From Azospirillum formosense (GTDB lineage: Bacteria > Pseudomonadota > Alphaproteobacteria > Azospirillales > Azospirillaceae), in assembly GCF_040500525.1 (NCBI RefSeq), contig NZ_CP159403.1, positions 15,001-79,000 on the forward strand: a stretch of 64,000 bases of DNA, given 5' to 3'. The notes under the pieces are model-generated. The model did no database searches, was not told where the DNA came from, and saw only the letters and a list, made by a program, of their open reading frames with translations. Position 1 is the first letter of the stretch. The number at the start of each line of letters is the position of its first letter. The translations under genes were made by a program, and so were the position numbers. This document shows, one piece after another, positions 38,264-58,024 of the stretch.

Positions 38264-38541
38264 CCGCCACGCTGCTGCTCTGGTCGATCTTCCTGGCGCA
38301 GATCCTGCTGGTCGTCGCGATGGCCTGCGCGACGTACCGCGTGCTGCGCGGGCCGCGGGCGCAGGACCGCGTGCTCGGGCTCGACACGCTGTACGTCAAC
38401 GCCACGATGCTGCTGCTGACCTTCGGCATCCGCACCGGCAGCACGCTCTATTTCGAGGCGGCGCTGATCATCGCGCTGCTCGGCTTCGTCGCGACGGCGG
38501 CGCTCGCGAAGTTCCTCATGCGCGGAGAGGTGATCGAATGA
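38260..38541 (+). CDS. mrpF: Mrp antiporter subunit F
   Basis: A 93-residue three-helix subunit with the family motif VLRGPRAQDRVLGLDTL and a C-terminal LGFVATAALAKFLMRGE. It overlaps mrpE and mrpG by 4 nt each. Confidence 0.93.
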   Translation: MTATLLLWSIFLAQILLVVAMACATYRVLRGPRAQDRVLGLDTLYVNATMLLLTFGIRTGSTLYFEAALIIALLGFVATAALAKFLMRGEVIE

Positions 38542-39403: not shown

Positions 39404-39501
39404 CGGCGCACCCTTTTGACGTTGATTCGGGTGGCCAGGGTAGACCGCGCTCCGTGGTGCCAACAAACGATTTAAGCGGGGGTCGATCGCGCGAAAACGC
39501 T

Positions 39502-39534
39502 GCGGCCCCGGTCCGCGATGCGAACCGGGGCCGC
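39502..39534 (-). terminator. Rho-independent-type terminator after the porin gene
   Basis: Arms 39502-39512 and 39524-39534 form a perfect 11-bp GC stem with an 11-nt loop. On the minus strand it is followed by AGCGTTTTCG. It lies 15 bp past the porin stop and probably ends the long minus-strand operon. Confidence 0.75.
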
Positions 39535-39548
39535 GTCGCCCGGCGCGA

Positions 39549-40733
39549 TCAGAAGGACAGACGGGTGTCGAGCATCACGATGTGCGCGCGGTCCTTCAGG
39601 TCGCCGCCGTCGGGACGGCCCGCCTGCAGGGTGGACCGCACATAGTCGTACTCCAGCCCGGCGGTGAAGCCGGGGGCGACGGTCCAGGTGACGCCGCCCT
39701 GCCAGATGTCCGCCTTGCTCGGCGTGGACATGGTCGCGCTGTCGTTGCCCAGCGCCCGCAGGTAGTTGGCGGCGAGCAGCAGCGGCCCGGCGCCGTACTG
39801 CGCGCCGAAGATCCAGTTCTGCTGCGCCCGCGTCTGGGCGAGGCCCTCGGCGTAGCCGCTGTCGCCGCTGTAGGCGTAGCTGGCGCCGACCTTCACCGGA
39901 CCGTAGCCGACGTTGGCGCCGACATGGACGGAGTTCAGGTCCTCGAAGGACTGGCTGACGACGCCGTCGGTCTGGCGCACCGCCTTGCCGGTCGCGTAGA
40001 AGGCGCTGCCCTCGACGCTGACCTCGCCGACCGCGGTCTGGAAGGCGCCGCCGACCTCGACCACATCGCGGAAGGACAGCAGGTCACCCAGCGCGTCGGT
40101 GGTGCGGCGGTTGACCGACGCGTTGGAGTCGCCGCTGCGCGGCATGTAGGACACCGCCGCCGACAGGCCGCCGAAGCTCGGCGTGATGTAGACGAATTTG
40201 GTCCCGGTGTCGTAGGCGATCAGCGTGCGCAGGCTGGTGGCGGCCAGCGGCAGGGCGCCGAAGGTCGAGGAGCCGTTCAGGAACAGGATGCCGTTGCTGT
40301 CCGGGCTGCCCGCCACGCCTTCCACGTTCGGGCCGATCATCCCGTATTCGTCCGACAGGCCGTTGATGACGCCGGCCTGGATCGTGCCGAAGCCGCCGTT
40401 GGCGAAGAGGAAGGCGCGGTCGTTCTCGATGTTGCGGGTCGAGACGGTCGGATCGCCGTTGCCCGCCACGATGCGCAGCCGCGCGCCGTAGGTCAGGCCG
40501 TTGTCGGCGGTGGCCGTCGGGGTGACGACCAGACGGTAGCGGTTGGCGAACTCGCGCGAGCGCAGGCCCTCATCCCGGTCCTGGCGGATGTAGGCGCCCT
40601 GGAAATAGGCGTCGCCGCCGAGGATCAGGTCGAAGCTCGGCTCGGCCAGGGCCGGAGCCGACGTCAGGGCGGCGAAGGCGGTGCCGGCGAGAGCGGCGGC
40701 GCGAAGGGAGAAGGCGTTCATGGGCGTCGTCAT
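39549..40733 (-). CDS. Outer-membrane porin
   Basis: A 394-residue beta-barrel porin of the Gram-negative general type. The signal peptide is MNAFSLRAAALAGTAFAAL followed by a cleavage near APALA. Alternating strands follow, with GFGTIQAGVINGLSDEYG as the pore-loop region and a terminal Phe (MLDTRLSF) as the BAM recognition signal. ATG 40733 overlaps the upstream stop in an ATGA junction; ATG 40721 would also keep the signal intact. As last gene of the ten-gene run, it could provide the outer-membrane path for whatever that system moves, or be coincidental. Confidence 0.88.
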   Translation of the reverse strand: MTTPMNAFSLRAAALAGTAFAALTSAPALAEPSFDLILGGDAYFQGAYIRQDRDEGLRSREFANRYRLVVTPTATADNGLTYGARLRIVAGNGDPTVSTRNIENDRAFLFANGGFGTIQAGVINGLSDEYGMIGPNVEGVAGSPDSNGILFLNGSSTFGALPLAATSLRTLIAYDTGTKFVYITPSFGGLSAAVSYMPRSGDSNASVNRRTTDALGDLLSFRDVVEVGGAFQTAVGEVSVEGSAFYATGKAVRQTDGVVSQSFEDLNSVHVGANVGYGPVKVGASYAYSGDSGYAEGLAQTRAQQNWIFGAQYGAGPLLLAANYLRALGNDSATMSTPSKADIWQGGVTWTVAPGFTAGLEYDYVRSTLQAGRPDGGDLKDRAHIVMLDTRLSF

Positions 40734-41488
40734 TCCAGGGTCGAGAGAGGAGGGCTGCCGGGAAACCAGCGGCGGCCGAAGGGGGTGAGGTTGGCGTCCT
40801 CTAGCCGGGCGAGGCAGAGGATCTCCACGCTGTCGGCCCAGCGCGGGTTGATGCGGCGGAACCGGGCGACCGCCGGGCTGTCCAGCTTGGCCTCGCTGAT
40901 GGCGCGGGCCTCCTCGGTCAGACCGTAGCCTTGCCATTGCCAGTCCACGGTGCCGGTTTCGGCGTCGTAGTATTGGGCGAAGCATTCCCGCCCGATGTGG
41001 TCGCGGAACGCCCGGTCGAGGCCGTCGGGGGGCTGGTCCGGTTGCGGCGTGTGGCGGACGAACAGCATCGGCATGTAGCGGTAGGAGCGGTAGCCGACCG
41101 CGCTGTAGCTCCAGTACCACAGCCGTCCCGAACGGTCGGCGCGGGCGCGGGCGACCATTTCGGCGACCATCGAGCGGACCAGCTCGTTCGATCCCCAGAA
41201 GCGGCGCTCCAGGATGCAGTGGGCGGTGTGGAAGGCGCCGACGGCGGTGCCGCCGATCTCCGTCGCCTGCCGGTAGACGGTGGCGAAGCCGACCAGCTCC
41301 CCGGTCCCGGCGTCCTCCTGCAGAACGCAGTGGTCGAGGCCGTCCAACTCCTCGTTGAAATAGTCCTCGCCGTAGCCTTCGAACCAGACGCTGAGCAGGG
41401 CGAACATCGCCGCCCGCCGCTCGGGCGTCAGGGCCGCCGGCGCGACGAAGCTGGTCCGCAGGGGAGGGCGCGCCGCGGGCGTGGTCAT
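40730..41488 (-). CDS. Acetyltransferase-like protein of unknown function
   Basis: The 252-residue protein has no confident family. Its pattern LVGFATVYRQ, then a strand, HCILERRFWGSNELVRSMVAEMVARA, then a Trp/Tyr-rich stretch (RLWYWSYSAVGYRSYRYMPM) recalls a GNAT N-acetyltransferase fold with a divergent acetyl-CoA loop. The C-terminal third adds a separate helical region. It overlaps the SET-domain gene by 4 nt, so the two are co-translated. Confidence 0.7.
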   Translation of the reverse strand: MTTPAARPPLRTSFVAPAALTPERRAAMFALLSVWFEGYGEDYFNEELDGLDHCVLQEDAGTGELVGFATVYRQATEIGGTAVGAFHTAHCILERRFWGSNELVRSMVAEMVARARADRSGRLWYWSYSAVGYRSYRYMPMLFVRHTPQPDQPPDGLDRAFRDHIGRECFAQYYDAETGTVDWQWQGYGLTEEARAISEAKLDSPAVARFRRINPRWADSVEILCLARLEDANLTPFGRRWFPGSPPLSTLE

Positions 41489-41910
41489 TCCCCGGCTCCG
41501 GCCCCGGCCCCGGTCAGATAGAGCGCCGCCCCGGCCTCGCGCACGTCGGCGCAGATGTCCTCATAGTTGCAGGTGATCTCCTCCCCGGCGGCGATGTCGC
41601 GGCGGGCGACGAAGCGCCGCCAGTCGCCGGGATCGGCCCGCCCGATCGATGGACCGTCCGCGTGGTTGAGGAACCGGGCGTCGTCCCCCGGCAGAAGGAC
41701 GCCGACGCCCTCGATCACGCAGCCGTGGAAATCGACCAGCCGGGCGACCTGCGGAAACTCCGCCAGCAAGGCGTCGTCGGGCTCCAGCAGGCGATCGATG
41801 CGGGCGTCGAACGCCCACACCGGCGTGCCGGCGGCGACCGCCTCTTCGGCGAAGAGTCCCAGCCCGTGGATCGGGCTGGAGGCGAGGCGGGTGGCGATGA
41901 GGAGCGGCAT
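41485..41910 (-). CDS. SET-domain protein (putative protein lysine methyltransferase)
   Basis: A compact 141-residue SET domain has the expected order: IHGLGLFAEEAVAAGT, the NH motif RFLNHADGPSI and GEEITCNYEDI. It lacks pre- and post-SET cysteines. Bacterial SET proteins methylate lysines of various cellular proteins; the target here is unknown, but the co-translated neighbour is one candidate. The C-terminal Gly/Ala tail is short and disordered. Confidence 0.85.
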   Translation of the reverse strand: MPLLIATRLASSPIHGLGLFAEEAVAAGTPVWAFDARIDRLLEPDDALLAEFPQVARLVDFHGCVIEGVGVLLPGDDARFLNHADGPSIGRADPGDWRRFVARRDIAAGEEITCNYEDICADVREAGAALYLTGAGAGAGE

Positions 41911-41934
41911 GGCGTCCTTCTCCGGCGATGAGAC

Positions 41935-43098
41935 TCAGGCGGCGGCGGTGGCCGCCTCGGCGGGAGCCAGCGACTCGTCGAACTCGAAGCTGGCGGCGTC
42001 GTCGACGAACTGCTCGGCGATGGTCGTGCCGGGGTTGGTCAGGCAGACGCCGATGTAGTCGGCGAAGCGCGGCGGCGGGGTGAAGCCCTCGGCCAGCAGG
42101 CGGCTGTTGTCGAAGGCGATGTCCTGCGCGGTGAAGCGGTGGTACTTGCGCCCGCCGGCCATCATCGTCCGGTGCAGGATGTCGCGCTGCGGGAAGGCCA
42201 GGCGGAAGGCGCGGTCGAAGGGCTTCCAGCCTTCCGGACCCTTCGGGTCGAAGAAGCTGTAGGGGCGGGTGCCCTCATGGCCGTGCGCGGCGAAGGCGGC
42301 CTGGAAGTCGCTCCACAGGGTGCGGCTGCCGAGGCCGGCGGAGATGTGGTAGAGGCTGTGCTTCAGGTCGGGCTTGCGCAGCAGGTCGTGCAGCCGGGCC
42401 GAGGCCCAGTCCACCGGAACGATGTCGATGAAGCCGTCCGGCGAGCAGGGCAGGACGCCGGTGCGGTCGACCAGCCGGAAGAACCAGAAGATGCTGGCGC
42501 TCGGGCGCACGCCCATCGCGGTGTGGCCGACGACGATGGACGGGCGGCAGACGACGATCGGCAGGTCGGGGAAGCCGGCGGCCAGGGCGCGTTCCGCCGC
42601 CGCCTTGCTGCGGGTGTATTCGACGATGTGCGGCGTGTCGTGGCCGGGGGCCGGAGCCTCCTCGACCATCTCCAGCCACGGCGTCTCGCCGCAGCAGAAG
42701 GCGGTGCCGATGTGCAGGAAGCGCTGCAGGTGCTTCATGCGGCGGGCGCGGGCGGCCAGCGCCAGCGTGCCGTCGACGTTGATCTGCCAGACCGAGTGGC
42801 GGCTGTCGAAGGAGGTGTCGGCGGCGACGTGGACGATGTGGGTCACCGCGTCCAGCCGCGGGTCGGCGCTGGTCGCCAGCGACTGCAGGTCGCCCGGGAT
42901 GATCTGGCAGAGATCGGCGTAGGCCTGGGCCGTGGCGCGGTCGACGCAGCGGGACAGGTTGGTGGCGAGACGGGCGCGGCAGGCGGCCTCGTCGGCGCCG
43001 CGGATCAGCAGCAGGCAGTCCGCCGCGGTCCCGTTCTTGACGGCGTCGAGGTAGAAGGAACCACCGAGAAAGCCGGTGCCGCCGGTGAGAAGGATCAT
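41935..43098 (-). CDS. Thioester-reductase-like extended SDR
   Basis: A 387-residue NAD(P)-binding protein of the male-sterility/thioester-reductase group. The glycine motif is GGTGFLGG at the very N-terminus. Other motifs are HVAADTSFDS, the catalytic Tyr/Lys in YTRSKAAAE, and RPSIVVGHT. This family reduces acyl or peptidyl thioesters to aldehydes or alcohols. It is a stand-alone domain here, with no attached carrier protein. Position between exporters and a SET protein suggests tailoring of an exported lipid or peptide (inference). Confidence 0.82.
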   Translation of the reverse strand: MILLTGGTGFLGGSFYLDAVKNGTAADCLLLIRGADEAACRARLATNLSRCVDRATAQAYADLCQIIPGDLQSLATSADPRLDAVTHIVHVAADTSFDSRHSVWQINVDGTLALAARARRMKHLQRFLHIGTAFCCGETPWLEMVEEAPAPGHDTPHIVEYTRSKAAAERALAAGFPDLPIVVCRPSIVVGHTAMGVRPSASIFWFFRLVDRTGVLPCSPDGFIDIVPVDWASARLHDLLRKPDLKHSLYHISAGLGSRTLWSDFQAAFAAHGHEGTRPYSFFDPKGPEGWKPFDRAFRLAFPQRDILHRTMMAGGRKYHRFTAQDIAFDNSRLLAEGFTPPPRFADYIGVCLTNPGTTIAEQFVDDAASFEFDESLAPAEAATAAA

Positions 43099-43180
43099 GG
43101 TGTGCCTCAGTCTCGCGTCTGGGGGAGGGGAGGGTTCGGTCGGTGGCTCCGATCCGCTGGCCCCGATCCGCTGGTCTGGA

Positions 43181-44845
43181 TCAGGCGGGCAGCAGGTCGG
43201 GGGCCGGAAGGGCGGGGGTGTCGAGCCGGCGGATACCGCCCTGCTCCACCTGGATCTGCACGTCGGCGGCGTCGAAATACGCGTCGTCGTGGGTCACGGC
43301 GATCACGGTGATGCCGCGCGCCTTCATCCAGGGAATGATCTCGCGGTAGAATTTCCGCCGGAAGTAGGGGGACTGGTCGGCGGCCCATTCGTCGAGCACC
43401 AGCACGGGCTTGCGCTCCAGCAGGGCGGCGGCCAGCGCGAGGCGCTTCTTCTGCCCCTGCGACAGGTCCACCGTCGTGAAGGCGCGGCCTTCGACCGCCA
43501 CCTTGTCCGACATCTCCAGCAGGTCGAGCAGCTCGTCGGCGAAGCCGTCCTCCAGCGACACCGCGCCGTAGAGCTGGCGGGTGACGTGGTTGTCGGAGAA
43601 GACGACGGAGAACAGGTCGCGGTAGGAGCCCAGCGTGTCCGCCGTCACCACCGCGCCGTCCACCGTCAGGCTGCCGCGTTGCGCCGGGTAGAGGCCGAGC
43701 AGCATGTGGATCAGCGTGCTCTTGCCGGCGCCGTTGTGGCCGGTGACGAAGACGACGTTGCCGCGCTCCACCGTCAGGTCGATGGGACCGACGGTGAAGG
43801 AGCCGGTGCCGTCGCGTCCGGGGTGGCGGTACGACGCGCCGTCGAGCGCGATGGTGGAGAAGTCGCCGAAACCGGTCGGCGGCGCGTCCTTGACCCGGCG
43901 CTGCGCAGGGCGCGGCGGCGCCTTCAGCTCCGCCTCCACCGCCAGATACGACCGGGCGGCGGTCTCGGCGCTGATGTAGGAGGGGTAGGAGGCGACGATG
44001 GTGATGACCGGGTAGGCGATGAAGGCGGCGGCGTGGCCGGCCAGCACGACGGTCGCGATGTCGGTGCTCGTCACCGCCGGCAGCAGGAAGATGATCCCGG
44101 CCAGCGCCGCGTAATAGGTCAGCTCGCTCAGCGTGAAGTAGTGGCTGTACTCGGCGCCGAAGCGGTGGCGCTCCTTGCGCAGCGCCTCGGCGCAGGCGGT
44201 GGCGTCGGACAGCGCGTTGGCGGCGCGGCGGCGGTTCAGCTTGCACTCGCGCAGGGTCTGCAGGATGTGGTCCGACCGTTCCGACAGCGCGCCCTCGGCC
44301 TCGTGGATCGTCTCCGACAGCCGCTCCAGCCGCAGGACGGAGCGGGTGATCAGGACGCCGCCGACCGTCAGGAAGCCCAGCACGATCAGCACCGCGGCGT
44401 TCGACAGGGTGGCGAGGTAGAGCAGGCAGAGGAGGATCGCCGCGACCGACTGAAAGCTGATGACCAGCGTCGGCACCGCCTGGGCGAGAAGCTGAAGCTC
44501 CGGCCCGGCGACCTGGGCGAGGCGGGTGGACCCGACCGCCATGGCATCGGGCAGGTCGGCGGCCACCGCGCGGCGCAGCAGGTCGACGCGCAGAACCGCC
44601 AGCGCCGCCTGCATCCGCTTGGACGCCGCGCTCATCATCCAGCCCTGGGCGAACCGCCAGGAGAAGGCGGACAGCAGGAAGATGAACAGCAGACGCTGCA
44701 ACCCCTCCGGATCGTCCATGATGACCAGAGCGCTGTTCAGCGAGGTCAGCAGGGCGAGGTTGAGGGCCGCCGCCAGCACCGCCAGCAGCATCAGCGGCTG
44801 CATGTTGCGCAGGGCGTCGCGTCTCAGGATGCGCCAGAGATCCAT
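43181..44845 (-). CDS. Cyclic-peptide-type ABC exporter (PvdE/SyrD-like), second of a pair
   Basis: A 554-residue half-transporter has six membrane helices then an ATPase. Walker A is GHNGAGKST (about 366-374), the signature is LSQGQKKRLAL, Walker B is VLVLDEWAADQ and the H-loop is VTHDD. The signature LSxGQ followed by KKR, and the DEWAADQ Walker B, are hallmarks of the PvdE/SyrD group that exports siderophore precursors or cyclic lipopeptides. ATG 44845 begins 7 nt after the SPFH gene stop. With the exporter at 46183-47907 it probably forms a heterodimer. Confidence 0.9.
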   Translation of the reverse strand: MDLWRILRRDALRNMQPLMLLAVLAAALNLALLTSLNSALVIMDDPEGLQRLLFIFLLSAFSWRFAQGWMMSAASKRMQAALAVLRVDLLRRAVAADLPDAMAVGSTRLAQVAGPELQLLAQAVPTLVISFQSVAAILLCLLYLATLSNAAVLIVLGFLTVGGVLITRSVLRLERLSETIHEAEGALSERSDHILQTLRECKLNRRRAANALSDATACAEALRKERHRFGAEYSHYFTLSELTYYAALAGIIFLLPAVTSTDIATVVLAGHAAAFIAYPVITIVASYPSYISAETAARSYLAVEAELKAPPRPAQRRVKDAPPTGFGDFSTIALDGASYRHPGRDGTGSFTVGPIDLTVERGNVVFVTGHNGAGKSTLIHMLLGLYPAQRGSLTVDGAVVTADTLGSYRDLFSVVFSDNHVTRQLYGAVSLEDGFADELLDLLEMSDKVAVEGRAFTTVDLSQGQKKRLALAAALLERKPVLVLDEWAADQSPYFRRKFYREIIPWMKARGITVIAVTHDDAYFDAADVQIQVEQGGIRRLDTPALPAPDLLPA

Positions 44846-44852
44846 CGCCGGC

Positions 44853-46181
44853 TCACTTGGGCTGGATGAGGTCGAGCAGGCGGGACGGCGACATGGTCGA
44901 CAGGATGGGGGCCGCCGCGGCCTTCCCGTCCTTGGCTGGTCCGCTGGCGGCCCCCGCGGCACCACCCGCCGCCTGGGGCTTGACGCCGGGGACCGGCGCC
45001 GTCGGCGCGTGGCCCGCCGCGGACGGCGCGGGTTCGGCGCCCGCGGTGTTCAGGCTGGGCATCTGGGCGACCGGCACCTGTCCGGGGGTGCCCTCGCCGC
45101 TCAGCGAGGGGAGCTGCGCGGCGGGCGGCACCGGCAGGCCGCTCGGCATGGTGACCGTCGCGGCCCCCGCCTGCGGCGCGCCGGGTGCGGGGGCGCCCGG
45201 CATCGGGAGGGTGGCGCCCTGGCCCGAGGCGGCGTCGAGGATCAGGGGCAGCCCGCCGCTGGCGGCGTTGCCGATGACGACGATCTTGGCGTTGGGCGAA
45301 TGGGCCAGCTCCAGCGTCGCCTCGATGCCGCGCCAGCGCAGGTAGTTCTCGGTCAGGTTGGCCTGCACCGTCTCCTGGAAGGCGCGGATGCCCTGGCCTT
45401 CGAGCTGCTTGCGCTGGCTCTCGAACAGCTCGCGCTGCAGGCGGAACTGGTATTCCTGGGCGGCCTGGTCCTGCTGGATCTTGCGCTCGATCGACACCAT
45501 GATCGCCTCGGGCAGCGAGACGTTGCGGATCAGGATGTCCTGGATCAGCAGGTAGCCGGTCTTGGTCCGCCCGTCGGGCTTCGGCGTGTCCTCGGCCCCG
45601 ATGATCTGGGCGTACATCACGCGGTCGGCGACCTGCTCGAAGGTCTCGGTCTGAACGCGCAGGCGGCGGTGGGCGTACAGCTCGTCGGCCTTGAAGCGCG
45701 ACACGATCTCGCGCGAGACCGACCCGACCTCCGGCACCAGCAGCACTTCCAGGTAGTTCGGCCCGACGTTCTTGTGCAGGGCGGCCAGCATCTCCGCGTA
45801 GGGGCGGTAGCGCACCGTGATCTCGATGCTGACGTTCAGGCCGTCGTTGGCGATGGCCGAGTAGGAGCGGGTGTCCTCCTGCAGGCGCAGGTCGTAGACC
45901 TCGATCTTGTCCCAGGGGAAGATGACGTGCACGCCCTCGGCCAGGGCCGGACCCATCTGGGTGCCCTGATGGAAGCGCTTCCACAGCACGCCGCCGTGGC
46001 CGGCGGGGATGAAGACGACGATCGACGGCGCGAAGTAGAGGAAGATCAGGATGCCGACCAGCAGCGTGCACAGCAGCGACCGGCGGTGCTCGTCGTACCA
46101 GTTGCCGAGCAGCGCGCGCAGGCGCGACTTCGGCTGCGGCGTCGCGTCGGCGTCGTCGTAGGTGAAGGCCTGGTCAGCCAT
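44853..46181 (-). CDS. SPFH/band-7 (prohibitin-like) membrane protein
   Basis: The 442-residue protein has one N-terminal membrane helix at about 37-58 and an SPFH domain at about 60-240 (VFIPAGHGGVLWKRF, ITVRYRPYAEMLA, VSREIVSRFKADELYA). A helical coiled-coil stretch follows to about 280, then a long Pro/Ala/Gly-rich tail. It lies exactly between two paired exporter genes, 1 nt from one and 7 nt from the other. SPFH proteins form ring-like microdomain scaffolds, so it may organise the exporter pair in the inner membrane; no protease partner (FtsH/HflC) is encoded here. Confidence 0.9.
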   Translation of the reverse strand: MADQAFTYDDADATPQPKSRLRALLGNWYDEHRRSLLCTLLVGILIFLYFAPSIVVFIPAGHGGVLWKRFHQGTQMGPALAEGVHVIFPWDKIEVYDLRLQEDTRSYSAIANDGLNVSIEITVRYRPYAEMLAALHKNVGPNYLEVLLVPEVGSVSREIVSRFKADELYAHRRLRVQTETFEQVADRVMYAQIIGAEDTPKPDGRTKTGYLLIQDILIRNVSLPEAIMVSIERKIQQDQAAQEYQFRLQRELFESQRKQLEGQGIRAFQETVQANLTENYLRWRGIEATLELAHSPNAKIVVIGNAASGGLPLILDAASGQGATLPMPGAPAPGAPQAGAATVTMPSGLPVPPAAQLPSLSGEGTPGQVPVAQMPSLNTAGAEPAPSAAGHAPTAPVPGVKPQAAGGAAGAASGPAKDGKAAAAPILSTMSPSRLLDLIQPK

Positions 46182-46182
46182 G

Positions 46183-47907
46183 TCACGCGGTCTCCTGGAG
46201 CAAAGCCGTGGCGGGGCGGGACGCGGCCTTGTCGGCCGGCGTGCCCGTCTGCCCGTTCGTCATGTGGCCGTTGGTCATGTGAATGGTCACGTCGCAGACC
46301 GACGCGGCGTTGCCGTCGTGCGACACGAAGATCACGGTGCGGCCGAGCGCCCGCAGCTTGCCGATGATCTCGTTGGTGAAGCGGGTGCGGAACTCGGCGT
46401 CCTGGTCGGACGTCCATTCGTCGAGGATGATGATCGGACGCCCCTCCGCGACCGCGACGGCCAGGGCGACGCGGCGGCGCTGGCCCTTGGAGAGGTCGCG
46501 GTTCAGCAGGCCATCGCCGGTCTCCGGAACCAGATGGTCGATCTTGAGATAGGCCAGCATCTCGCGGAACAGCTCCGCGTCGAAGGTCGGCCCCTGCGGC
46601 AGGCGGGTGAACAGGTGGTGGTCCTGGAACACCGCGCAGAACAGGTCGCGGTAGGATTCCAGCCGGTCGCCCTCCACCGCCTGCCCGTCGAGCAGCACCT
46701 GCCCCTCGTCCGGGCGGAACAGCAGCGGGATGACGCGCAGCAGGGTGGACTTGCCCGACCCGTTGGCGCCGACGATGCCGACGACGCTGCCCGCCGGGAT
46801 GGTCATGTCGATGGGACCGATCACGAAGGGCTCGGGCCGCAGCCCGGCGCGGTAGGCGAAGCGCACGTTGCGCAGCTCGATGGCGGAGAAGCGGCGCGGC
46901 GCGCGGGCCAGCTTCGACGGCGCGTACTCCGCCGCCGGCATGGCGGCCAGCAGGGTGGTGAGCTGGTTCGCCGCATCCTCCGCCGCGATGTAGTCGGGCA
47001 CGGCGTTGAGGAACTTCGACAGCGGCCGGGCGAGGAACAGGATGACCGAGGTGACCAGCGGCAGCTCCGCCGCCGACAGCGCGCCCATGCGCGGGAAGAT
47101 GAAGACGAAGACCGCGGAGAAGCCGATGACGATGGTGGCGATCCAGGAGAACAGCTCGCCCAGATTGCGCCCGTGGCGCCGCTTCAGGTCCTCCCATTGG
47201 GCGACGTCGGCCTCGACCGCCTGGGCCAACTCGTCGCGCCGCGCCTTGCCCAGCTTGATCTCGGCGTTGCCGCCGACGATCTCGGAGAAGCCCTGGAGCA
47301 TCCGCACCTCGGACTCCTTGGCTTGGCCGAGGAGGGCACGGGTCCGCTGCGCCTCGCGCACGTACCAGCCGCCGATCATCGCGCCGGCCACCAGAAGCAG
47401 CGTCGCGCCCACGGTGGTCAGCGTCCACAGGTAGAGGTAGGCCACGACCGCCACCAGCATCATGTTGGCGGCGATCGACAGGTTGGGCAGCAGCGCCGCG
47501 ATGCGCTCCAGATGGTGGTTGCCGAGGTCGAAGGAGCGGCGGGCCTGCATGTCGAGGATGTCGGCGTGGTTGCCCAGCGTGACGGTCTGCAGGAAGCGCC
47601 GCCGCACCCCGGCCAGCGCGCTGAAGCCGGTGGTCAGCACCAGCCCGACGAAGCGCTTGCTGAAGCTGTAGGAGACCAGCAGCGCCAGGCAGAAGATCAG
47701 GAAGGGCGTGTCCAGCACCTCGCCGCGCATCCAACCGTTCAGCTCGGCGCTGAGGCTCATCAGGCTGATGAGGTTGGCGGCGGCGGCGACGCAGCCGGTG
47801 ACCACCAGCCGGGTCAGGATCTCACGGTCGGCCAGCCCGATCAGGGGCAGCAGGGCCGAGACGGGCCGGCTGGGGGCGGCACGCTTGCTTGTCTTGCTTT
47901 TGCTCAT
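46183..47907 (-). CDS. Cyclic-peptide-type ABC exporter (PvdE/SyrD-like), first of a pair
   Basis: A 574-residue half-transporter with six helices. Its ATPase has Walker A GANGSGKST (about 377-385), signature LSKGQRRRVAL, Walker B IIILDEWTSDQ and H-loop VSHDG. It differs enough from the exporter at 43181-44845 to suggest an old, specialised heterodimer rather than a recent copy. A charged N-terminus (MSKSKTSKR) and an extra C-terminal tail with MTNGHMTNG are visible. Confidence 0.9.
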   Translation of the reverse strand: MSKSKTSKRAAPSRPVSALLPLIGLADREILTRLVVTGCVAAAANLISLMSLSAELNGWMRGEVLDTPFLIFCLALLVSYSFSKRFVGLVLTTGFSALAGVRRRFLQTVTLGNHADILDMQARRSFDLGNHHLERIAALLPNLSIAANMMLVAVVAYLYLWTLTTVGATLLLVAGAMIGGWYVREAQRTRALLGQAKESEVRMLQGFSEIVGGNAEIKLGKARRDELAQAVEADVAQWEDLKRRHGRNLGELFSWIATIVIGFSAVFVFIFPRMGALSAAELPLVTSVILFLARPLSKFLNAVPDYIAAEDAANQLTTLLAAMPAAEYAPSKLARAPRRFSAIELRNVRFAYRAGLRPEPFVIGPIDMTIPAGSVVGIVGANGSGKSTLLRVIPLLFRPDEGQVLLDGQAVEGDRLESYRDLFCAVFQDHHLFTRLPQGPTFDAELFREMLAYLKIDHLVPETGDGLLNRDLSKGQRRRVALAVAVAEGRPIIILDEWTSDQDAEFRTRFTNEIIGKLRALGRTVIFVSHDGNAASVCDVTIHMTNGHMTNGQTGTPADKAASRPATALLQETA

Positions 47908-47916
47908 CGGTCCGCG

Positions 47917-48678
47917 TCACTCCGCCAGCCAGGAGTCGAGGATGCGGGTGATCGTGCCGTTGTCGCGCAGCTTGACGAAGGCGGCCTGCAGCCGTTCGGC
48001 CTTCTCCTTGCGCGCCTTGGGCATGGCGATGTAGCGGGGGATCAGGCCGAGCGGCTTGGGCAGGACGCGCACGTCCTTCAGCCGCCCGTCCTGCTTGGCC
48101 ATGTGGTTCAGCACATGCAGGTCGCCGACGATCACGTCCACCCGGCCCAGGATCAGGCGGCGGAAGTTGACCACGTTGCTGCTCGACGGGATCTTTTCCA
48201 GATAGGTCGCGGCGTCGAAGTCCGGCGCGTAGGCGAAGCCGTCGACCACGCCGATGCGGTAGGGGGTCAGGTCCTCCAGCCGCTCGAAGGCGATGGGGGA
48301 GTCCTTGCGCACCATGAAGACGGTCGTGCCGGTGCGGAACGGGCCGATCATGTTGTATTGCGCGAAACGGGCGGGCGAGGCGATGAACTGGAACCCGACG
48401 TCGGCGGTGTTCTCGTCCATCGACCGGACGACCTCGGTCCAGGACAGCGGCCGGTGGACCGGGGTGATGGTCAGCTCCTTCAGCAGGGCGACGACGATCT
48501 CGGTGTCGATCCCCGTGCGGGTGCCGTTGAAGGAGTAGTTGTAGGGCGGGAAATGATCTTCCGACGCGATGGTCCAGTATTCGGCGCGCGCCGGGAGAAC
48601 CGCGGCGAACAGCGCCAGCAGGACCGGCAGCAGGAGCCGCAGCGCCGGGCGGAGGACGGACGCCGTCGCCGCCGTCAT
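47917..48678 (-). CDS. Periplasmic solute-binding protein, family 3
   Basis: A 253-residue protein with a signal peptide ending near Ala32 (LPARA) and a PBP-II fold of the amino-acid-binding type (ASEDHFPPYNYSFNG, ADVGFQFIASPARF, YRIGVVDGFAYAP). No importer permease is encoded nearby, so it may act as a sensor or chaperone for the exporter rather than in uptake. ATG 48678 overlaps the stop of the 56-residue gene (ATGA). Confidence 0.87.
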   Translation of the reverse strand: MTAATASVLRPALRLLLPVLLALFAAVLPARAEYWTIASEDHFPPYNYSFNGTRTGIDTEIVVALLKELTITPVHRPLSWTEVVRSMDENTADVGFQFIASPARFAQYNMIGPFRTGTTVFMVRKDSPIAFERLEDLTPYRIGVVDGFAYAPDFDAATYLEKIPSSSNVVNFRRLILGRVDVIVGDLHVLNHMAKQDGRLKDVRVLPKPLGLIPRYIAMPKARKEKAERLQAAFVKLRDNGTITRILDSWLAE

Positions 48679-48845
48679 GCCTTCGCCCGCTTCTTGGCGC
48701 GGGTGGTCAGCAGGATCATCACGAGAAGGGCGCCGGGCGGTGTCAGGACCACCGCCAGGAAGGCGTAAAGCAGGAAGCCGCCGCGGCGGCCGATCCCCAG
48801 AAACCCGACCAGCAGGCAGAGACCGATGTAGATCAGCTCGAACAC
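48675..48845 (-). CDS. Small 56-residue two-helix membrane protein
   Basis: GTG 48845 opens a 56-residue frame with GAGGGAAG about 7 nt upstream. Two hydrophobic helices (LIYIGLCLLVGFLGIG and LLYAFLAVVLTPPGALLVMI) are followed by a basic tail TTRAKKRAKA. Its stop overlaps the next start by 4 nt, and the spacing to DUF697 (42 bp) is operon-like. It belongs to no family I know. The basic end should lie in the cytoplasm. Confidence 0.78.
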   Translation of the reverse strand: MFELIYIGLCLLVGFLGIGRRGGFLLYAFLAVVLTPPGALLVMILLTTRAKKRAKA

Positions 48846-48887
48846 GGCGATGCTTCCCTCTTTGCCCGGCGCCCCGGCGTCGTGCCC

Positions 48888-49403
48888 TTAGCCGGCCTTC
48901 TGGACCGGCTGCTCTTCCATCTGCGGCGCGGCGGCCGGAGCCTCGCCGGCCTCGTCCTTGGCGGCCTCGTTCCGGGCGGCCTCGAACTCCTTGCGGAAAT
49001 GCTCGCGCATCGCCTCGACGTCGAAGTCCAGCAGCGTGCCGCCGGTCTCGAAATGCTGCGCGAACACGCGGCCGAGCGCCTGGGTGGCGGCCAGAGACAG
49101 GGCCGGCATGACGGCGACGCCCAGGGCGGTGCCGATGAACGGAACGGCCTTCACGGCGGAGCCGAGCACGCTGGAGCTGAGCGCGCCGGGCATGACGCCG
49201 CCCATCAGCGCGCCGATGATCGCGCGGGTGCGCTCCTGCGCGAACTCGATCTCATAGAGCTTGGCGAGCTTATGGATCAGGTTGAGCTGGGCCACGCTGA
49301 CCGCGGCGACGTCCGCGCCGGGAACGGGGATGAGTCCGAAGGCGCCCGAGGCGTAGCTGTGGTACTTGATCAGTTCCTGGGCGCGCTTCTTGCGGTCTAC
49401 CAT
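48888..49403 (-). CDS. DUF697/YcjF-type membrane-associated protein
   Basis: The 171-residue protein matches the pattern of DUF697: SYASGAFGLIPVPGADVAAV, LAKLYEIEF, RAIIGALMGGVMPG and VPFIGTALGVAVMPALSL. Two hydrophobic segments may insert into the membrane. An acidic/Ala/Pro tail closes it. In many genomes the domain accompanies dynamin-like or small GTPases, but no GTPase is here. It is the first gene of the ten-gene minus-strand run, preceded by AAAGG and an AT-rich region. Confidence 0.8.
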   Translation of the reverse strand: MVDRKKRAQELIKYHSYASGAFGLIPVPGADVAAVSVAQLNLIHKLAKLYEIEFAQERTRAIIGALMGGVMPGALSSSVLGSAVKAVPFIGTALGVAVMPALSLAATQALGRVFAQHFETGGTLLDFDVEAMREHFRKEFEAARNEAAKDEAGEAPAAAPQMEEQPVQKAG

Positions 49404-49784: not shown

Positions 49785-52700
49785 CTACCTTTGCGGGAAG
49801 CGAACCGGCAGGTCGAGGGCGCGCGCCGGAAGCTCGTTGCGCGTTCCGGCGCTGATCGCCGCCCCCAGGACCAGGACGGTGTCGCGCACCGGCTGTCCGT
49901 CGATGGTCTGCGTCGGCAGGGCGACGCGCAGCAGCAGGCCGTCCCGCGACGACGACGGGGCGTGGCCTTTCAGCAGGCGCAGCAGCGCCCACGGCCCGCG
50001 TTCCGCCAGGGTGATGGTGTCGCCGGTCGCCGCGGCGGTTCCGCCCGCCGGCGCGCCCTTCGGACGGAAGGGCGACCCGGCGGCCCAGCGGGCGCTCAGC
50101 AAAACCGGCTGGCCTGGCGTCCAGGCGAGCGTTCCGCCGTTGGCTGCCGCGCCCACCGCGCTGGAGCCGGAGCGCACCGACCAGTCGATGATGTGCTCCG
50201 CCCCGACCTCCTGCGCGCGGTTGGCGCCGTAGGTGAGGCGGACGCCGACCGGCGCTGGGCGCGCGACGGCTTCCAGCAGGGGGCGGGCGGCCTCCATCCG
50301 CTCCATGAAGGCGGCGACCTCGGGGGTCGCGGTCCGCATCACCGCCGCCCGGTGCTCGTCGAGCTGCCGGTAGAAGCGGCGGACGTCCTGCGGGTCGGCG
50401 TCCGGCGCGCCGCGCGCCTGTTCGGAGCCGACGAAGGGGAAGCGCCCGGCGAGGGTCTGCGCGAAGGCGGCGGACAGCTTCGACAGGGCGACGTCGCTGT
50501 CCGGGATCGTGGCCTCCACCGGCGGTCGGGGCGGGATCGGCAGATGCGCGACGACGGCCGGCTCCTCTGTGATGGCGGGCGCGACGGCGGGCGGCGGCGC
50601 CACGGGGTCCGGCGAGGGGCGCGCGGCAGGCGGAGCCGCCGCGACGGGCTTGGCCGGCTCGGCTTCGGGCGCAACGGGCTTTGGTTGCGCAGGCTTGGCT
50701 TCGGCGGGTTTGGCTTCGGCGGGCTTGGCTTGTTCAGGCTTCGGCGGCTCCGGCTTCGGCTCGGCCGGCTTGGCAACCACGGCGGGCGGAGCCTCGGGAG
50801 CCGGTGCGGGCAGGGCGGCGGCCAGGGCGTCCGGCAGCGCGATCACCGCCGGGTTCAGGGTCAAGGCCCCGCCCTCGCCCACCGCGAACAGGGCGCCGGT
50901 CTGCGGCGCGTCCAGCGCCAGGACGGCGGCGCGGGCGCCGGTTGCGGCGGTGGACAGGGCCTCGGTGATGCGGTCGGTGGTGTCCCGGCCCGGCAGATCG
51001 GCGATGGCGGCCTTCTGAAGCACCACACGGATCGCGTCGGGCAGGCCGCGGGCGGGGTCCTGCAAGGCACCGGCGATGGGCCAGGCGACGGCCTCGGCGA
51101 CGGCGCCGGTCAGGCGGCGGACGTCGTCGACGTCCTCGGCGGTCGGCGCCTCCGGCAGGCCGCGCAGCCGCTCGGCCAGGGCCTCGGCGCGCTGGCGGAG
51201 CGGGTTGCGGCCGTACAGCTCCTCGGCCAGCGGGGCGGCGAGCTGCACCGATTCCGCGCGCACCGCCGCGGCGATGGTCCGGGCGTCGAGGTTGGGCAGG
51301 TCGGCGCCCGCGGCGATGCGCGTGATGTAGCCGTCCGTCGCCGTCATCGGCGAACGGGGGACGGCGCCGTAGACGCTTTCGGCCAGCGCGTTCAGCTCGT
51401 CGAAGCCGCTGTTGCGGCGGAAGCGGTCGTAGCGCTCTAGCGCGTCGCGCCGCCCGCCGATGCGGTCGAGCTGCTCGGCGAGGCGGCGGAAGGCGGGCAG
51501 GTCTTCCACCCGCTGCGGGTTGGCCACCGGCGGCAGGTCGGCCATGGTGGCGCTGGGCAGCAGCGCGTCACGGATCGGCCGCAGCACCGAGCGGCGCAGC
51601 GTGACCGAGGCGAGCCGCTTCTTGTCCTCGTCGAAGGCGCTGAACAGCGAGGTCGGCAGCAGCGGCGTGGCGAGGGGACTGCGCTCCATCACCGCCGTGG
51701 CGGCGATCACGTGCCCGACCAGAGGCCCGTCGGTCACGGCGTCGCGCGCCAGCAGCGCCCGGCGGAGGTCGGCGGTGGCGGCGGCGACCGGCGGGCTGCC
51801 GGCGGACACGCTGGACACGCCCTGCCACGCGGCGACCGACAGGCCGGCGACCGAGGCGGCGAGCGCCGCCTGCGCCATCCGGCGGCGCTTGTGGGCCTGC
51901 TGGTAGGCGGCGTCGGACGGCCGCCCATAGCCGGCCTCGGCGAAGGCCCGGCCCGGCAGCAGGTCGCGGGCGAAGACCGGACGGCGCCCGCCAGTGGCCG
52001 GGGCGTAGGCGCCGGTCAGGGCGATGCCGCGCAGCGGGAAGGGCTCCGCCTGATCGTCGCCGCCTCCATCTCCTCCCAGGGCGCCGTCGAGGAACAGCGC
52101 CAGCGGATGGCGCAGCGTGTCCAGGGACGCCGGCAGCAGCGGCAGGCGCACCCCGGCGGTGCCGGCGGCGAAGGCGTCGGCCTCCAGAACGGCGATGTCG
52201 GCGGCGATGGCCTCGAACGCCTCGTCGATGCGGCGCGGCTCGAAGGGCTTCGCCCAGTCCTGCGGGTTGGTCCATCCCAGCACGCCGTCCAGCAGGGCCG
52301 ACGGCATGGCGGCGCAGAGGTCGGCGAAGCCGTCCAGCGCCTCGGCGCGAACCACGACCACATGCACGGGGGCGACCACGCCGAGATCGTCGCGCAGGGT
52401 CCGCAGGCGCTCCCGCAGGGCGGCGCCCCGCTTGGCCAGCGCGTCGCGCGGGCCATGGTGCTTGGCGGGGCGCTCGGCGGCGGCGCTCAGCTCGTCGGCG
52501 CCGACCATCAGCAGGACGCCGTCCAGCGGGCGGCGCATCGGCCGCTTGCGCATCGCCGCGACCAGCGCCGGCCAGGACGCGCCCAGCCGGGAGCCGTCGG
52601 CGGAATCGGCGCCAGCGTGCAGGATCGCCGCCCCTTCGCAGAACCACCAGCAGCCGTTCTCGCCGTTGCCGTCCTCGGGCCAGCGGACATGGGTCGGGTC

Positions 52701-53120
52701 GGTGGCGAGCAGGGCCGGGCCGCCGACGCCGAAGGCGAGGAACCACGGGATGTCGCCGCGGCGCAGGGGACCGCGCATCTGCCGCGTCAGGATGTCCAGC
52801 CCCTCGCCGTAGATGCGGGCGTTGGGCGGCGTGTCGGCGGCGGCCTTCTTCGGCGGTGGCACCTCTGCGCGGACGCGCAGCGGCGCTGGCGGGGCGGTCC
52901 GGCGCGCGGGCGCCTTCTTCCGGACGGTGCCCTTGGCGGCGGGCTTGCGCCGCCAGCCGCGCAGCGTCGGCCAGACCATCCGGCCGAGGCGGTAGAAGAT
53001 GTAGAGCGGCAGCGCCAGCAGCGCGTAGGGCGCCAGCGTGACGGCGAAGGACAGCAGAGTGACGATGGCGGAGCCGATGGTGGAGAGCACCAGCTCCAGC
53101 GTGAGCATCAGTAGGACCAT
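49785..53120 (-). CDS. Divergent TssM/IcmF-like protein without Walker A
   Basis: The 1111-residue protein has the TssM architecture. An N-terminal membrane hairpin (6-45) is followed by a cytoplasmic domain (PWFLAFG, CWWFCEGAAIL, PLDGVLLMVGADEL, APVHVVVVRAEALDGFADL). A third helix lies at about 413-438, then a large periplasmic region. Its C-terminal end holds the TssM-type ARW...GPWALLRLLKG block. The nucleotide site is lost: where TssM has GxxGSGKT/S, this has GVGGPALLAT (131-140). A Pro/Ala/Lys-rich insert (about 768-843, with KPAEAKPAEAKPA repeats) interrupts the periplasmic part. It overlaps the TssL-like gene by 13 nt. Confidence 0.83.
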   Translation of the reverse strand: MVLLMLTLELVLSTIGSAIVTLLSFAVTLAPYALLALPLYIFYRLGRMVWPTLRGWRRKPAAKGTVRKKAPARRTAPPAPLRVRAEVPPPKKAAADTPPNARIYGEGLDILTRQMRGPLRRGDIPWFLAFGVGGPALLATDPTHVRWPEDGNGENGCWWFCEGAAILHAGADSADGSRLGASWPALVAAMRKRPMRRPLDGVLLMVGADELSAAAERPAKHHGPRDALAKRGAALRERLRTLRDDLGVVAPVHVVVVRAEALDGFADLCAAMPSALLDGVLGWTNPQDWAKPFEPRRIDEAFEAIAADIAVLEADAFAAGTAGVRLPLLPASLDTLRHPLALFLDGALGGDGGGDDQAEPFPLRGIALTGAYAPATGGRRPVFARDLLPGRAFAEAGYGRPSDAAYQQAHKRRRMAQAALAASVAGLSVAAWQGVSSVSAGSPPVAAATADLRRALLARDAVTDGPLVGHVIAATAVMERSPLATPLLPTSLFSAFDEDKKRLASVTLRRSVLRPIRDALLPSATMADLPPVANPQRVEDLPAFRRLAEQLDRIGGRRDALERYDRFRRNSGFDELNALAESVYGAVPRSPMTATDGYITRIAAGADLPNLDARTIAAAVRAESVQLAAPLAEELYGRNPLRQRAEALAERLRGLPEAPTAEDVDDVRRLTGAVAEAVAWPIAGALQDPARGLPDAIRVVLQKAAIADLPGRDTTDRITEALSTAATGARAAVLALDAPQTGALFAVGEGGALTLNPAVIALPDALAAALPAPAPEAPPAVVAKPAEPKPEPPKPEQAKPAEAKPAEAKPAQPKPVAPEAEPAKPVAAAPPAARPSPDPVAPPPAVAPAITEEPAVVAHLPIPPRPPVEATIPDSDVALSKLSAAFAQTLAGRFPFVGSEQARGAPDADPQDVRRFYRQLDEHRAAVMRTATPEVAAFMERMEAARPLLEAVARPAPVGVRLTYGANRAQEVGAEHIIDWSVRSGSSAVGAAANGGTLAWTPGQPVLLSARWAAGSPFRPKGAPAGGTAAATGDTITLAERGPWALLRLLKGHAPSSSRDGLLLRVALPTQTIDGQPVRDTVLVLGAAISAGTRNELPARALDLPVRFPQR

Positions 53121-53836
53121 GACAGCCCCATGTCCTCGACCGCGGCGCGGGCGCCGCTCAGATCGCGTTGGATGCCGCCGACGGCGCCGGCCCACAGCAG
53201 GTGCGAGACCACCAGGAACAGCACGGCGGTCCCGCCGACCGCCCACCACCAGCGGCGTGCGGACGGCGCGGGGTAGCCGGGCACGGCGCCTTCCGGCGGC
53301 TCGCAGGCGCGCGGGCTGGGGTGGCTGGCCGCGGCGCGCTCGCCGACGACGATGCGGTGCAGGGCGGGGCGGCGGGCGGTCGCCTGGGCGTCGTCGGGAA
53401 AGCCCAGAGCCAGCGCCGCGAGATAGACGGCGGCCAGCCCGCGGTCGGCCTTGGCGCCCTGGCGGATCAGGTCGTCGGCCTGGACGAACAGGGTCTGCAG
53501 CGTGGCGTTCGCGCCGAACAGACGGCTGGAGACCACGGCGTCGGCGGGCCGCGTCTGGGCCAGCGCGCGATCGGCCAGCATGGCCATGGCGAAGGCCGCC
53601 TTGACCACCGTGCCGTGCGCGCCCGGCCCCTGCGAGACGGCGGCGCCGCTCATCCCGTGGAGCGTCGCGGTCAGGCGGTCGGCCACCGTCCCCGCCGGGG
53701 CCTGCGCGTCGGCGCAGCCGGCGAGCAGGTCCTCCTGGAAGGCGCGGAACAGGGCCAGCGTGCCGGCGGGCTTGCTCCCGGCGGGCATGGCCTTCGGTGC
53801 AGGGGCGGATTGGGCCGCAGCGGTTTGGGTGGTCAC
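53108..53836 (-). CDS. Divergent TssL/DotU-like protein
   Basis: The 242-residue protein has a helical cytoplasmic domain and one C-terminal membrane helix at about 201-220 (WWWAVGGTAVLFLVVSHLLW). The domain shows the DotU pattern: KAAFAMAMLADRALA, LFGANATLQTLFVQADDL and AAVYLAALALGFPD. The tail-anchored topology is that of TssL. A short Pro-rich stretch precedes the helix. GTG 53836 overlaps the TssJ-like stop (GTGA). Confidence 0.78.
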   Translation of the reverse strand: MTTQTAAAQSAPAPKAMPAGSKPAGTLALFRAFQEDLLAGCADAQAPAGTVADRLTATLHGMSGAAVSQGPGAHGTVVKAAFAMAMLADRALAQTRPADAVVSSRLFGANATLQTLFVQADDLIRQGAKADRGLAAVYLAALALGFPDDAQATARRPALHRIVVGERAAASHPSPRACEPPEGAVPGYPAPSARRWWWAVGGTAVLFLVVSHLLWAGAVGGIQRDLSGARAAVEDMGLSWSY

Positions 53837-54306
53837 GGCGTTCCCTCCGTCAGCGGAGCCACGGTGAAGCTGTCCCGTCCCAGCCGCACGTCCAGGGCGC
53901 CGGCGCCGTCCAGACTCTGCCGGTGGGCGCCGGACGCGCCGTACCGGGCGTAGACGAGGGTTCGGGTCGGGGTGGCAGGAGATGGAGCGAAGGGAGGCAG
54001 GCTGTGCAGCAGCACGCTCTGGCCCGGCACCATCTCCCAGGAGGCGATGGCGATGCGGTTGCCGGCCTCGGCGCTCAGCGCCTCGCGGTCGCGGAACCAG
54101 CCGGCGGCGTCGAGACCGGCCAGCCGCCCGGCCAGCGCCGGATCGGCCACCCGCACCACGTCGACGGCGACCGGGCGGCGCCCGTTGGCGTCGGGCTCGG
54201 CGACGATGCGCAGCACGGGGGCGTCGGCGCGCCCCGCGCCGGGCGTGGGGACGCCCGCGGCGCAGCCGGCAAGCGTCAGGGACAGGATGATCGCGAGGCG
54301 CTTCAT
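53833..54306 (-). CDS. Putative TssJ-like outer-membrane lipoprotein
   Basis: The 157-residue lipoprotein has the lipobox LAGC (Cys15). A compact beta-rich domain follows, with RRPVAVDVVRVADPALAGRL, WFRDREALSAEAG and VPGQSVLLHSLPP. The order of basic strand, DxxALxxE-type segment and PGQ turn recalls TssJ/SciN, but similarity is weak. Assignment leans on its place directly before TssL- and TssM-like genes. ATG 54306 is preferred, with GAGG 11 nt upstream, over GTG 54315. Confidence 0.62.
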   Translation of the reverse strand: MKRLAIILSLTLAGCAAGVPTPGAGRADAPVLRIVAEPDANGRRPVAVDVVRVADPALAGRLAGLDAAGWFRDREALSAEAGNRIAIASWEMVPGQSVLLHSLPPFAPSPATPTRTLVYARYGASGAHRQSLDGAGALDVRLGRDSFTVAPLTEGTP

Positions 54307-54319
54307 GTCAGCCACCGCC

Positions 54320-54715
54320 TCAGCCCCCGCCGCCGGGCGCCGACTGGCCGACGCAGACGTAGCCCGCCGGGGTATGGCGGTACCAGTTGCCGGTCGCCTC
54401 GGCGCAGGGGGCGAGGACGCGGTCGTTGCGCTGCGGCTCCGCTGCCGCCGGGGCCGGGGCGGGGTCCATTTCCCGGCCTGTGGCGGGACGGTTGGTCACG
54501 ACGAAGCCGTCCTCGTCCTCCTCCACGATCATCACGTAGCGCGCGCGCTTGGCGGGGTAGCGGATGCCCACGTCGTAGTCGCCGTCGGCCACCTTCTCCA
54601 GGATCGCGCCGGGGCGGTCGCCGCCCAGCGGCGCGCAGCCCGTCCCGGCGAGCAGGACCGGCAGCAGCGCCGTCGCGGCGATCAGGGTTCGCATCATCGG
54701 GGTGTTCCTGCTCAT
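54320..54715 (-). CDS. Small lipoprotein, unknown function
   Basis: The 131-residue protein has a lipoprotein signal with lipobox GTGC near residue 27. Its body has a strand-rich region (DYDVGIRYPAKRARYVMIVEEDEDGFVVTNRP), a Pro/Ala linker, and two cysteines (LAPCAEATG, YVCVGQ) that could form a disulfide. I do not recognise the family. ATG 54715 overlaps the channel gene stop by 4 nt. It sits between the channel fusion and the TssJ-like gene, and could bridge them. Confidence 0.7.
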   Translation of the reverse strand: MSRNTPMMRTLIAATALLPVLLAGTGCAPLGGDRPGAILEKVADGDYDVGIRYPAKRARYVMIVEEDEDGFVVTNRPATGREMDPAPAPAAAEPQRNDRVLAPCAEATGNWYRHTPAGYVCVGQSAPGGGG

Positions 54716-57795: not shown

Positions 57796-57823
57796 GGGGT
57801 GTCCGTTTGGCGTTGGGCGGCTT

Positions 57824-58024
57824 CCCTCTCCCGCCTCGGGAGAGGGAAGGGGCCCGCGAAGCGGGAAGGGTGAGGGTGAGTGCAAGGATCAGGCGGTCGC
57901 GCCGTTGGACGACCCTCACCCTCCCGCGCTTCGCGCGGGTCCCTCCCTCTCCCGGGGCTCTCGGCGGCCAAAGGCCGCCTGACGCCGTCAGCGCCCGCAA
58001 GCGGGCGCGAGAGGCGGGAGAGGG
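57824..58024. repeat. Intergenic palindromic repeat element, copy 3 (longer)
   Basis: This is the longest copy, about 200 bp. It has the same outer blocks (CCCTCTCCCGCCTCGGGAG plus AGGG at the left, inverted at the right), and an extra inserted stretch in its right half (GGCGGCCAAAGGCCGCC). It lies between the MscS-fusion gene and the type I adaptor gene, and may separate the two transcription units. Confidence 0.8.

Follow-up and report, generated by a model that had tools for sequence, protein, structure and literature searches.

What might a run of ten genes be for, when it strings together a DUF697 membrane protein, a tiny membrane protein, a periplasmic binding protein, two exporters of the ATP-binding cassette (ABC) kind, an SPFH protein, a short-chain dehydrogenase/reductase (SDR), a SET-domain protein, an acetyltransferase-like protein and a porin? 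This question is raised by positions 39549 to 49403 of a 64,000-nucleotide stretch of Azospirillum formosense DNA (the window throughout; C2:15001-79000 of the source genome, G000, which comprises 6.1 Mb in six contigs), and an initial annotation, made from the letters alone, had called them an operon of unknown purpose that looks like a production and export route for a modified small molecule or peptide. The object to be explained is larger, a one-strand locus of ~31 kb in Azospirillum and its near relatives, of which these ten make up the downstream part. The reading that we prefer, at somewhat less than an even chance and on the evidence of sequence, is that this locus may be a display system for a giant adhesin, with a co-opted, tail-less envelope scaffold of the type VI secretion system (T6SS) kind and an arm that tailors and exports a small molecule.

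The locus and its inheritance

All ten open reading frames (ORFs) are present on the minus strand, with nine intergenic gaps of -4 to 82 bp, and they do run together, overlapping or nearly touching, as had been said of them. Pfam recognises DUF697, SBP_bac_3, two ABC proteins, Band_7/SPFH, a NAD_binding_4 SDR, SET and Porin_4 in the block, and offers no family for the 56-aa and 252-aa genes. The ratio of nonsynonymous to synonymous substitution rates (dN/dS) lies at 0-0.27 against genome G005 and 0.13-0.38 against G020, and this purifying selection on all ten, taken with their conservation across Azospirillum, excludes chance. What lacks support is the idea of a unit closed on itself. Upstream of 49403, after a gap of 381 bp, the same strand carries on with TssM, TssL, TssJ, a lipoprotein and a fusion of a binding protein with an MscS channel, and then with HlyD, ABC and TolC genes and a giant gene that exits the window at 64000, starts and stops mostly overlapping (Table 1). 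At the other end, the terminator proposed for the block is a real and strong hairpin 3' of the porin (-44.6 kcal/mol, a stability that none of 200 shuffles equalled; z -5.1), although only a short UUUU follows it and it is missing from the output of the terminator scan; the promoter scan found no promoter-like sites.

The two halves of the locus are inherited together. The gene for the 252-aa protein (GNAT, see below) occurs in 29 of the 82 genomes of the order, and the MscS fusion, at an identity of at least 68%, in the same 29 and in G015; A. brasilense Sp7 has the locus on NZ_CP012915.1. For 26 of these 29 genomes the pair shares one contig and lies within ~21 kb. The two genes fall on separate contigs of draft assemblies in G019 and G022, and in G033 (L076, L077) a break within SET, natural or an assembly fault, leaves the halves of the locus ~75-90 kb apart. 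Of the 22 named GNAT loci, all have SET next to GNAT, 21 contain SDR and 20 the porin, and TssM stands within the flank in 19, the gene calls in other genomes coming from a GC-bias script that can miss or overextend genes.

Two outlying genera show where the locus comes apart. In Skermanella (G081) one strand reads giant-TolC-ABC-HlyD-MscS-lipoprotein-TssJ-TssL-TssM-SDR-SET-GNAT-ABC, and the divergent strand DUF697-small transmembrane-SPFH-ABC-ABC-binding protein; in Arenibaculum (G001), SDR-SET-GNAT-ABC lies beyond an SPFH unit that runs the opposite way, with TssM followed by a second binding protein. The ten genes therefore comprise two modules or more, among them one for SPFH/DUF697/SyrD-like export and one for SDR-SET-GNAT tailoring. 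Co-inheritance, a check that the initial annotation had offered, holds for the MscS fusion in every one of the 29 genomes with GNAT; in these two genera the parts stand as separate divergent units of one locus.

A second TssJLM set and a giant protein

Compared at the level of sequence, the three Tss proteins of the locus are paralogous to those that form the membrane complex in the T6SS of the same genome. TssM aligns with its T6SS counterpart in two blastp segments, one of 335 aa at 29% identity (E 2e-19) and one of 195 aa at 33% (E 1e-18); PF14331 is found in 8/8 relatives and PF06744 (IcmF_C) weakly in six of the eight, the window copy having it at the C-terminus, where it is expected. Pro, Lys, Ala and Glu make up 78% of a 110-residue stretch of TssM, and a hydropathy scan gives two N-terminal segments, which partly supports a reading with three transmembrane segments. 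TssL carries PF09850 (DotU) in 8/8 relatives (best E 2.7e-13), the window copy at 22.8 bits against a cut-off of 27 bits, and matches the T6SS TssL by hhalign at E 7.8e-8; searched against PDB sequences, TssL and TssM return chance-like matches only. TssJ is 38% identical to the T6SS TssJ over 114 aa (E 8e-20; hhalign E 1.9e-25), and the five best VIA matches of its predicted structure (pLDDT 80.9) are T6SS TssJ structures, with Z 12.6-11.1 and Foldseek in agreement, ahead of Francisella IglE at Z 7.6 and 7.4 and unrelated chains at no more than 6.9. The TssJLM membrane complex is therefore present in the locus, by sequence and predicted structure. The T6SS proteins of A. brasilense Sp7, TssJ included, are listed as fructose-induced in PMC11837500.

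The tail is another matter. G000 has a single sheath gene (VipB/TssC, PF05943), at C2:1125882, ~1.05 Mb from the locus, and its only TssK (PF05936) is at C2:1115199; the locus holds neither, and no Hcp, VgrG or ClpV is found among its Pfam-scanned genes, a genome-wide family search for these three not having been made. Could the locus trio serve the main T6SS as a second or alternative membrane complex, the adhesin helping to hold prey or host cells? The paralogy of the three proteins would fit, as would the sheath gene in 28 of the 29 GNAT-carrying genomes, but the main T6SS encodes a TssJ, TssL and TssM of its own, and the exception, G020, carries the whole locus with neither VipB nor TssK anywhere in its genome, so that we regard this possibility as unlikely. 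A second orphan, a short IcmF of 674 aa (PF14331, part of PF06761), lies beside a TagF_N gene near G000:C1 2419210 (L152 8889-11557), and an IcmF match of ~700 aa occurs, among the matches listed, in all six VipB-less genomes of the genus (G017, G020, G030, G031, G040 and G044).

Nor do we give more than a very small chance to the trio being a decaying T6SS remnant. TssM does lack a P-loop in 8/8 aligned rows, though the main-T6SS TssM is also without one, and with dN/dS of 0.32-0.49 against G020 the three Tss genes evolve faster than most others of the locus. Their frames are intact, however, and dN/dS stays below 0.5 even against this sheath-less genome, in line with the 0.0-0.5 found for all 18 locus genes tested against G005 and G020; such constraint makes decay unlikely.

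The giant gene encodes 2,585 aa in one contiguous stretch, with Cadherin_4 (E 3.3e-15) and CshA_repeat (E 1.8e-9) matches in Pfam and three EF-hand-like D-x-D/N-x-D/N-G motifs close to the C-terminus. TolC, HlyD and ABC genes adjoin it, giving the complete gene set of a type I secretion system (T1SS) for a giant adhesin. We set aside the idea that SET and GNAT tailor a lysine-rich giant protein: it has 36 lysines, and the 16 that fall within residues 400-600 are suggestive at most. The fusion of binding protein and MscS is found in four of 385 genomes at class level, and in two distant members of the class (L150, L151; 41% identity) it is likewise linked to genes of a T1SS or for a giant protein.

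The export module and the tailoring trio

What, then, do the ten genes themselves tell us? Both ABC halves keep Walker A, LSxGQ and Walker B intact, and we liken them to the SyrD/PvdE/YojI exporters of cyclic peptides and siderophores. They share with these the fused transmembrane-ATPase architecture and the best-scoring families, TIGR01194 and NF007813, and differ in that both fall below the curated cut-offs (for TIGR01194, cyclic-peptide export, 286.2 bits) and that the locus is without a nonribosomal peptide synthetase (NRPS).

The module recurs. Among 36 further SPFH loci (L156-L191), DUF697 is present in 32 and a SyrD-like ABC match in 30. An NRPS or polyketide synthase (PKS) motif occurs in the fetched stretch of 33 of 48 non-focal SPFH loci, which are non-independent (shared genera) and include several short contigs, against one of 19 comparison stretches, a non-random set fetched previously; two motif-less loci (L157, L072) still encode a relative of type II thioesterases. 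Maximum-likelihood analysis places the focal SPFH rows and G047 within a 15-row clade (support 97/87) with the NRPS-adjacent L070, L078 and L170, which belong to three other genomes, inner support being weaker (84/40). From these relatives and this grouping we infer that the focal module probably descends from secondary-metabolite exporters, its synthase absent here. No C, A, PCP, KS or AT motif is found in the focal-type loci L065, L069, L136, L137, L154 and L155, and L067 has one AT-type motif, the sole NRPS/PKS motif among focal loci.

Two observations belong beside this. On C3 at 380-401 kb (L063, L088), G000 has an NRPS cluster with SPFH, DUF697, small transmembrane, ABC-pair and thioesterase genes of its own. 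In L176 (12285-12959), next to T1SS-like genes and an SPFH module, lies a possible peptide precursor of 225 aa, which begins with a short stretch resembling a leader and ends in a Pro/Ser-rich tail.

As for the trio, the SDR keeps its NAD and YxxxK motifs, as TGGTGFLG and YTRSK, and the SET motifs are kept too. The 252-aa protein had been called acetyltransferase-like, and its model bears this out: by predicted structure (pLDDT 83.8) it has a GNAT fold, with VIA Z 12.1-10.5 to acetyl- and acyltransferases across the 50 rows shown and a Foldseek E of 3e-6, acyltransferase activity being a prediction. Distant relatives in Acinetobacter (L195) and on a Citrobacter plasmid (L197), at 23-28% identity (hhalign E 1.4e-16 and 3.1e-13), both adjoin GH3 acyl-activating genes; a Burkholderia match stands in a neighbourhood with poor gene calls. 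The alignment of the GNAT family covered 16 of its 29 copies, L020 and L024 excluded. LuxR, amidase, HlyD, MFS and TolC genes also flank the Acinetobacter gene, and the Citrobacter cluster holds radical SAM and desaturase genes besides.

Could the ten genes be a pathway of their own after all, in which SDR, GNAT and SET make or modify an acyl or peptide compound that the ABC pair and porin export, with TssJLM and the T1SS as an old neighbour? In its favour are the NRPS/PKS motifs near relatives of the export module, the GH3 genes and exporters by distant GNAT relatives, the SyrD-like ABC that follows SDR-SET-GNAT in both G001 and G081, and the 381-bp gap before DUF697. On the other side stand the co-occurrence of GNAT and the MscS fusion in every one of the 29 genomes, the Skermanella arrangement, where the trio comes directly after TssM on the same strand and the SPFH unit is the divergent one, and the lack of a synthase, the only condensation domains of G000 being those on C3 beside the second SPFH module. 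We hold this possibility to be doubtful, though a serious one. What the initial annotation said of a small-molecule route is partly supported, by the export module, the NRPS/PKS-adjacent relatives in the focal SPFH clade and the GNAT neighbourhoods, and was too narrow in leaving out the T1SS, giant-adhesin and TssJLM half that travels with the block; its remark that no synthase or precursor is visible holds for synthase motifs in focal loci (bar L067), while a large secreted-type gene lies just outside the window.

Another idea is that of an uptake or stress system, with no part for adhesin or metabolite, where an osmolyte or amino acid is moved by the binding protein, the porin, the MscS channel and the SPFH and ABC proteins. 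SBP_bac_3 and Peripla_BP_6 are indeed ligand-binding folds and the run does end in a porin, but the ABC proteins are of exporter type, no ABC importer permease appears among the genes scanned, and a T1SS with its giant protein stands within the same run; we see little chance of it. An anti-phage defence role was dropped, the PADLOC matches being generic ATPase matches. Directly downstream of the block, on the opposite strand, are Mrp/MBH-type antiporter genes (window 32786-38960), and a 625-aa ORF at 27096-28973 has a C-terminal FHA domain and no further Pfam family.

Table 1. Features of the locus, in window coordinates, from the giant gene to the hairpin after the porin
Feature	Position	Strand	Evidence and remarks
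Giant (2,585 aa) T1SS-type surface protein, C-terminal part	62660..64000	-	continues to ~G000:C2:85417 (window ~70417)
TolC-type outer membrane protein	61128..62525	-	PF02321 E 5e-47
T1SS ABC permease/ATPase	59449..61131	-	PF00005, PF00664
HlyD-type adaptor	58052..59452	-	PF13437 E 6e-19
Peripla_BP_6 periplasmic ligand-binding domain/MscS channel fusion	54712..57885	-	PF13458 E 6e-34; PF00924 E 9e-16
Small lipoprotein, 131 aa	54320..54715	-	no Pfam family; lipobox read by eye; start overlaps MscS stop
TssJ paralogue (outer membrane lipoprotein of T6SS membrane complex)	53833..54315	-	own-T6SS TssJ match and predicted structure
TssL/DotU paralogue	53108..53836	-	PF09850; one C-terminal transmembrane segment
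TssM/IcmF paralogue	49785..53120	-	PF14331 E 3e-27; Pro/Lys/Ala/Glu-rich linker; no GK[S/T] P-loop
DUF697 membrane protein	48888..49403	-	PF05128 44.6 bits (cut-off 27.7)
56-aa protein, two transmembrane segments	48675..48845	-	conserved beside DUF697
Periplasmic amino-acid-type binding protein	47917..48678	-	PF00497 E 2e-19
SyrD/YojI-like ABC exporter half a	46183..47907	-	NF007813 240.6, TIGR01194 201.5 bits, both below cut-off
SPFH protein	44853..46181	-	PF01145 E 8e-21
SyrD/YojI-like ABC exporter half b	43181..44845	-	NF007813 286 bits (cut-off 604); TIGR01194 266.9 (cut-off 286.2)
NAD-dependent SDR, thioester/fatty-acyl reductase type	41935..43098	-	PF07993 E 8e-33
SET-domain protein	41485..41910	-	PF00856 E 6.5e-10
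GNAT-fold acyltransferase-like protein, 252 aa	40730..41488	-	no Pfam; predicted structure
Gram-negative porin	39549..40733	-	PF13609 E 2e-35
Strong GC hairpin 3' of porin, probable terminator	39485..39545	-	folding energy against shuffles

How the parts may work together

In the adhesin-display reading that we prefer, the T1SS would export the giant protein, its retention at the surface being a prediction, and the MscS fusion may sense a ligand or tension. Together with TssJLM, which would reach from the inner membrane to an outer-membrane lipoprotein, the fusion could hold or release the adhesin as SiiAB does for SiiE; relieved of tail docking, TssJLM would become a trans-envelope scaffold, and the Pro/Lys/Ala/Glu-rich stretch of TssM could span the periplasm. 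In the other arm, SDR and GNAT may act on a small compound of acyl or amino-acyl type and SET may methylate a protein lysine, while the SPFH-organised ABC pair would export the compound, with the porin as its outer-membrane pore. A bolder claim, which we put forward tentatively and hold to be less likely than not, is that tail-less TssJLM works as an envelope machine of its own, released from the contractile tail and rebuilt with the MscS-type sensor into the anchor and gate of the type I-secreted adhesin, with physical coupling to small-molecule export.

Several points weigh against the reading that we prefer. Tail-independence comes from one draft genome, a single sheath-less case in 29; the 381-bp gap parts TssM from DUF697; and the Tss genes are, as seen above, among the faster-evolving of the locus. 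Sequence-profile tests of TssJ were negative with Pfam (0/8), with PDB sequences and by hhalign against nine PF12790-type TssJ, and we treat its identity as settled because the predicted structure and the comparison with the genome's own T6SS TssJ, which PF12790 likewise misses, are both positive. A core of T1SS, giant and MscS fusion exists without TssJLM in G015 (fusion at 68%) and, more diverged, in others, and from G015 it follows that TssJLM is unneeded for secretion as such. Lastly, the physical linkage of adhesin, TssJLM and small-molecule arm is a proposal drawn from anatomy.

Known systems offer partial models. In the T6SS, according to PMC4604203, TssJLM connects the inner membrane with a lipoprotein of the outer membrane, and the locus resembles the E. 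coli complex described there (SciN/TssJ, TssL, TssM) in its three subunits, the predicted TssJ fold and the N- and C-terminal domains of TssM; it differs in that no sheath, baseplate-adaptor or other tail genes were found in it, in the Pro/Lys-rich TssM linker and in the T1SS encoded alongside. The closest working analogue may be Salmonella SPI4 (SiiABCDEF), where, according to PMC6272769, a giant adhesin has its own T1SS and is retained or released under the control of SiiAB, a channel of the inner membrane. A giant repeat protein, a dedicated TolC/HlyD/ABC T1SS and an accessory inner-membrane channel would be common to both, the likeness being one of analogy and not of sequence comparison with SiiAB, whereas the channel is MotAB-like in SPI4 and a binding-protein/MscS fusion here, and the locus adds TssJLM and tailoring genes. 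NRPS/PKS clusters with SPFH-DUF697-ABC, such as the one on C3, have the same kind of export module and gene neighbours, and hold the synthase and type II thioesterase that the locus lacks. The GNAT-GH3 clusters share a homologous GNAT and, in Acinetobacter, exporters nearby, with a GH3 acyl-activating enzyme where the locus has a thioester-reductase SDR and SET.

Searches of an open-access library turned up no description of either such adhesin control or the SPFH/DUF697/ABC module, which recurs as an export module accompanying NRPS and PKS genes. The known role of TssJLM is to dock the type VI tail, and a conserved, constrained second copy that has no tail genes and lies beside a giant-adhesin T1SS would show that the complex is capable of another job; the locus offers a clean way to learn the function of TssJLM in the absence of its tail, and it may represent a new route of adhesin control in plant-associated Azospirillum.

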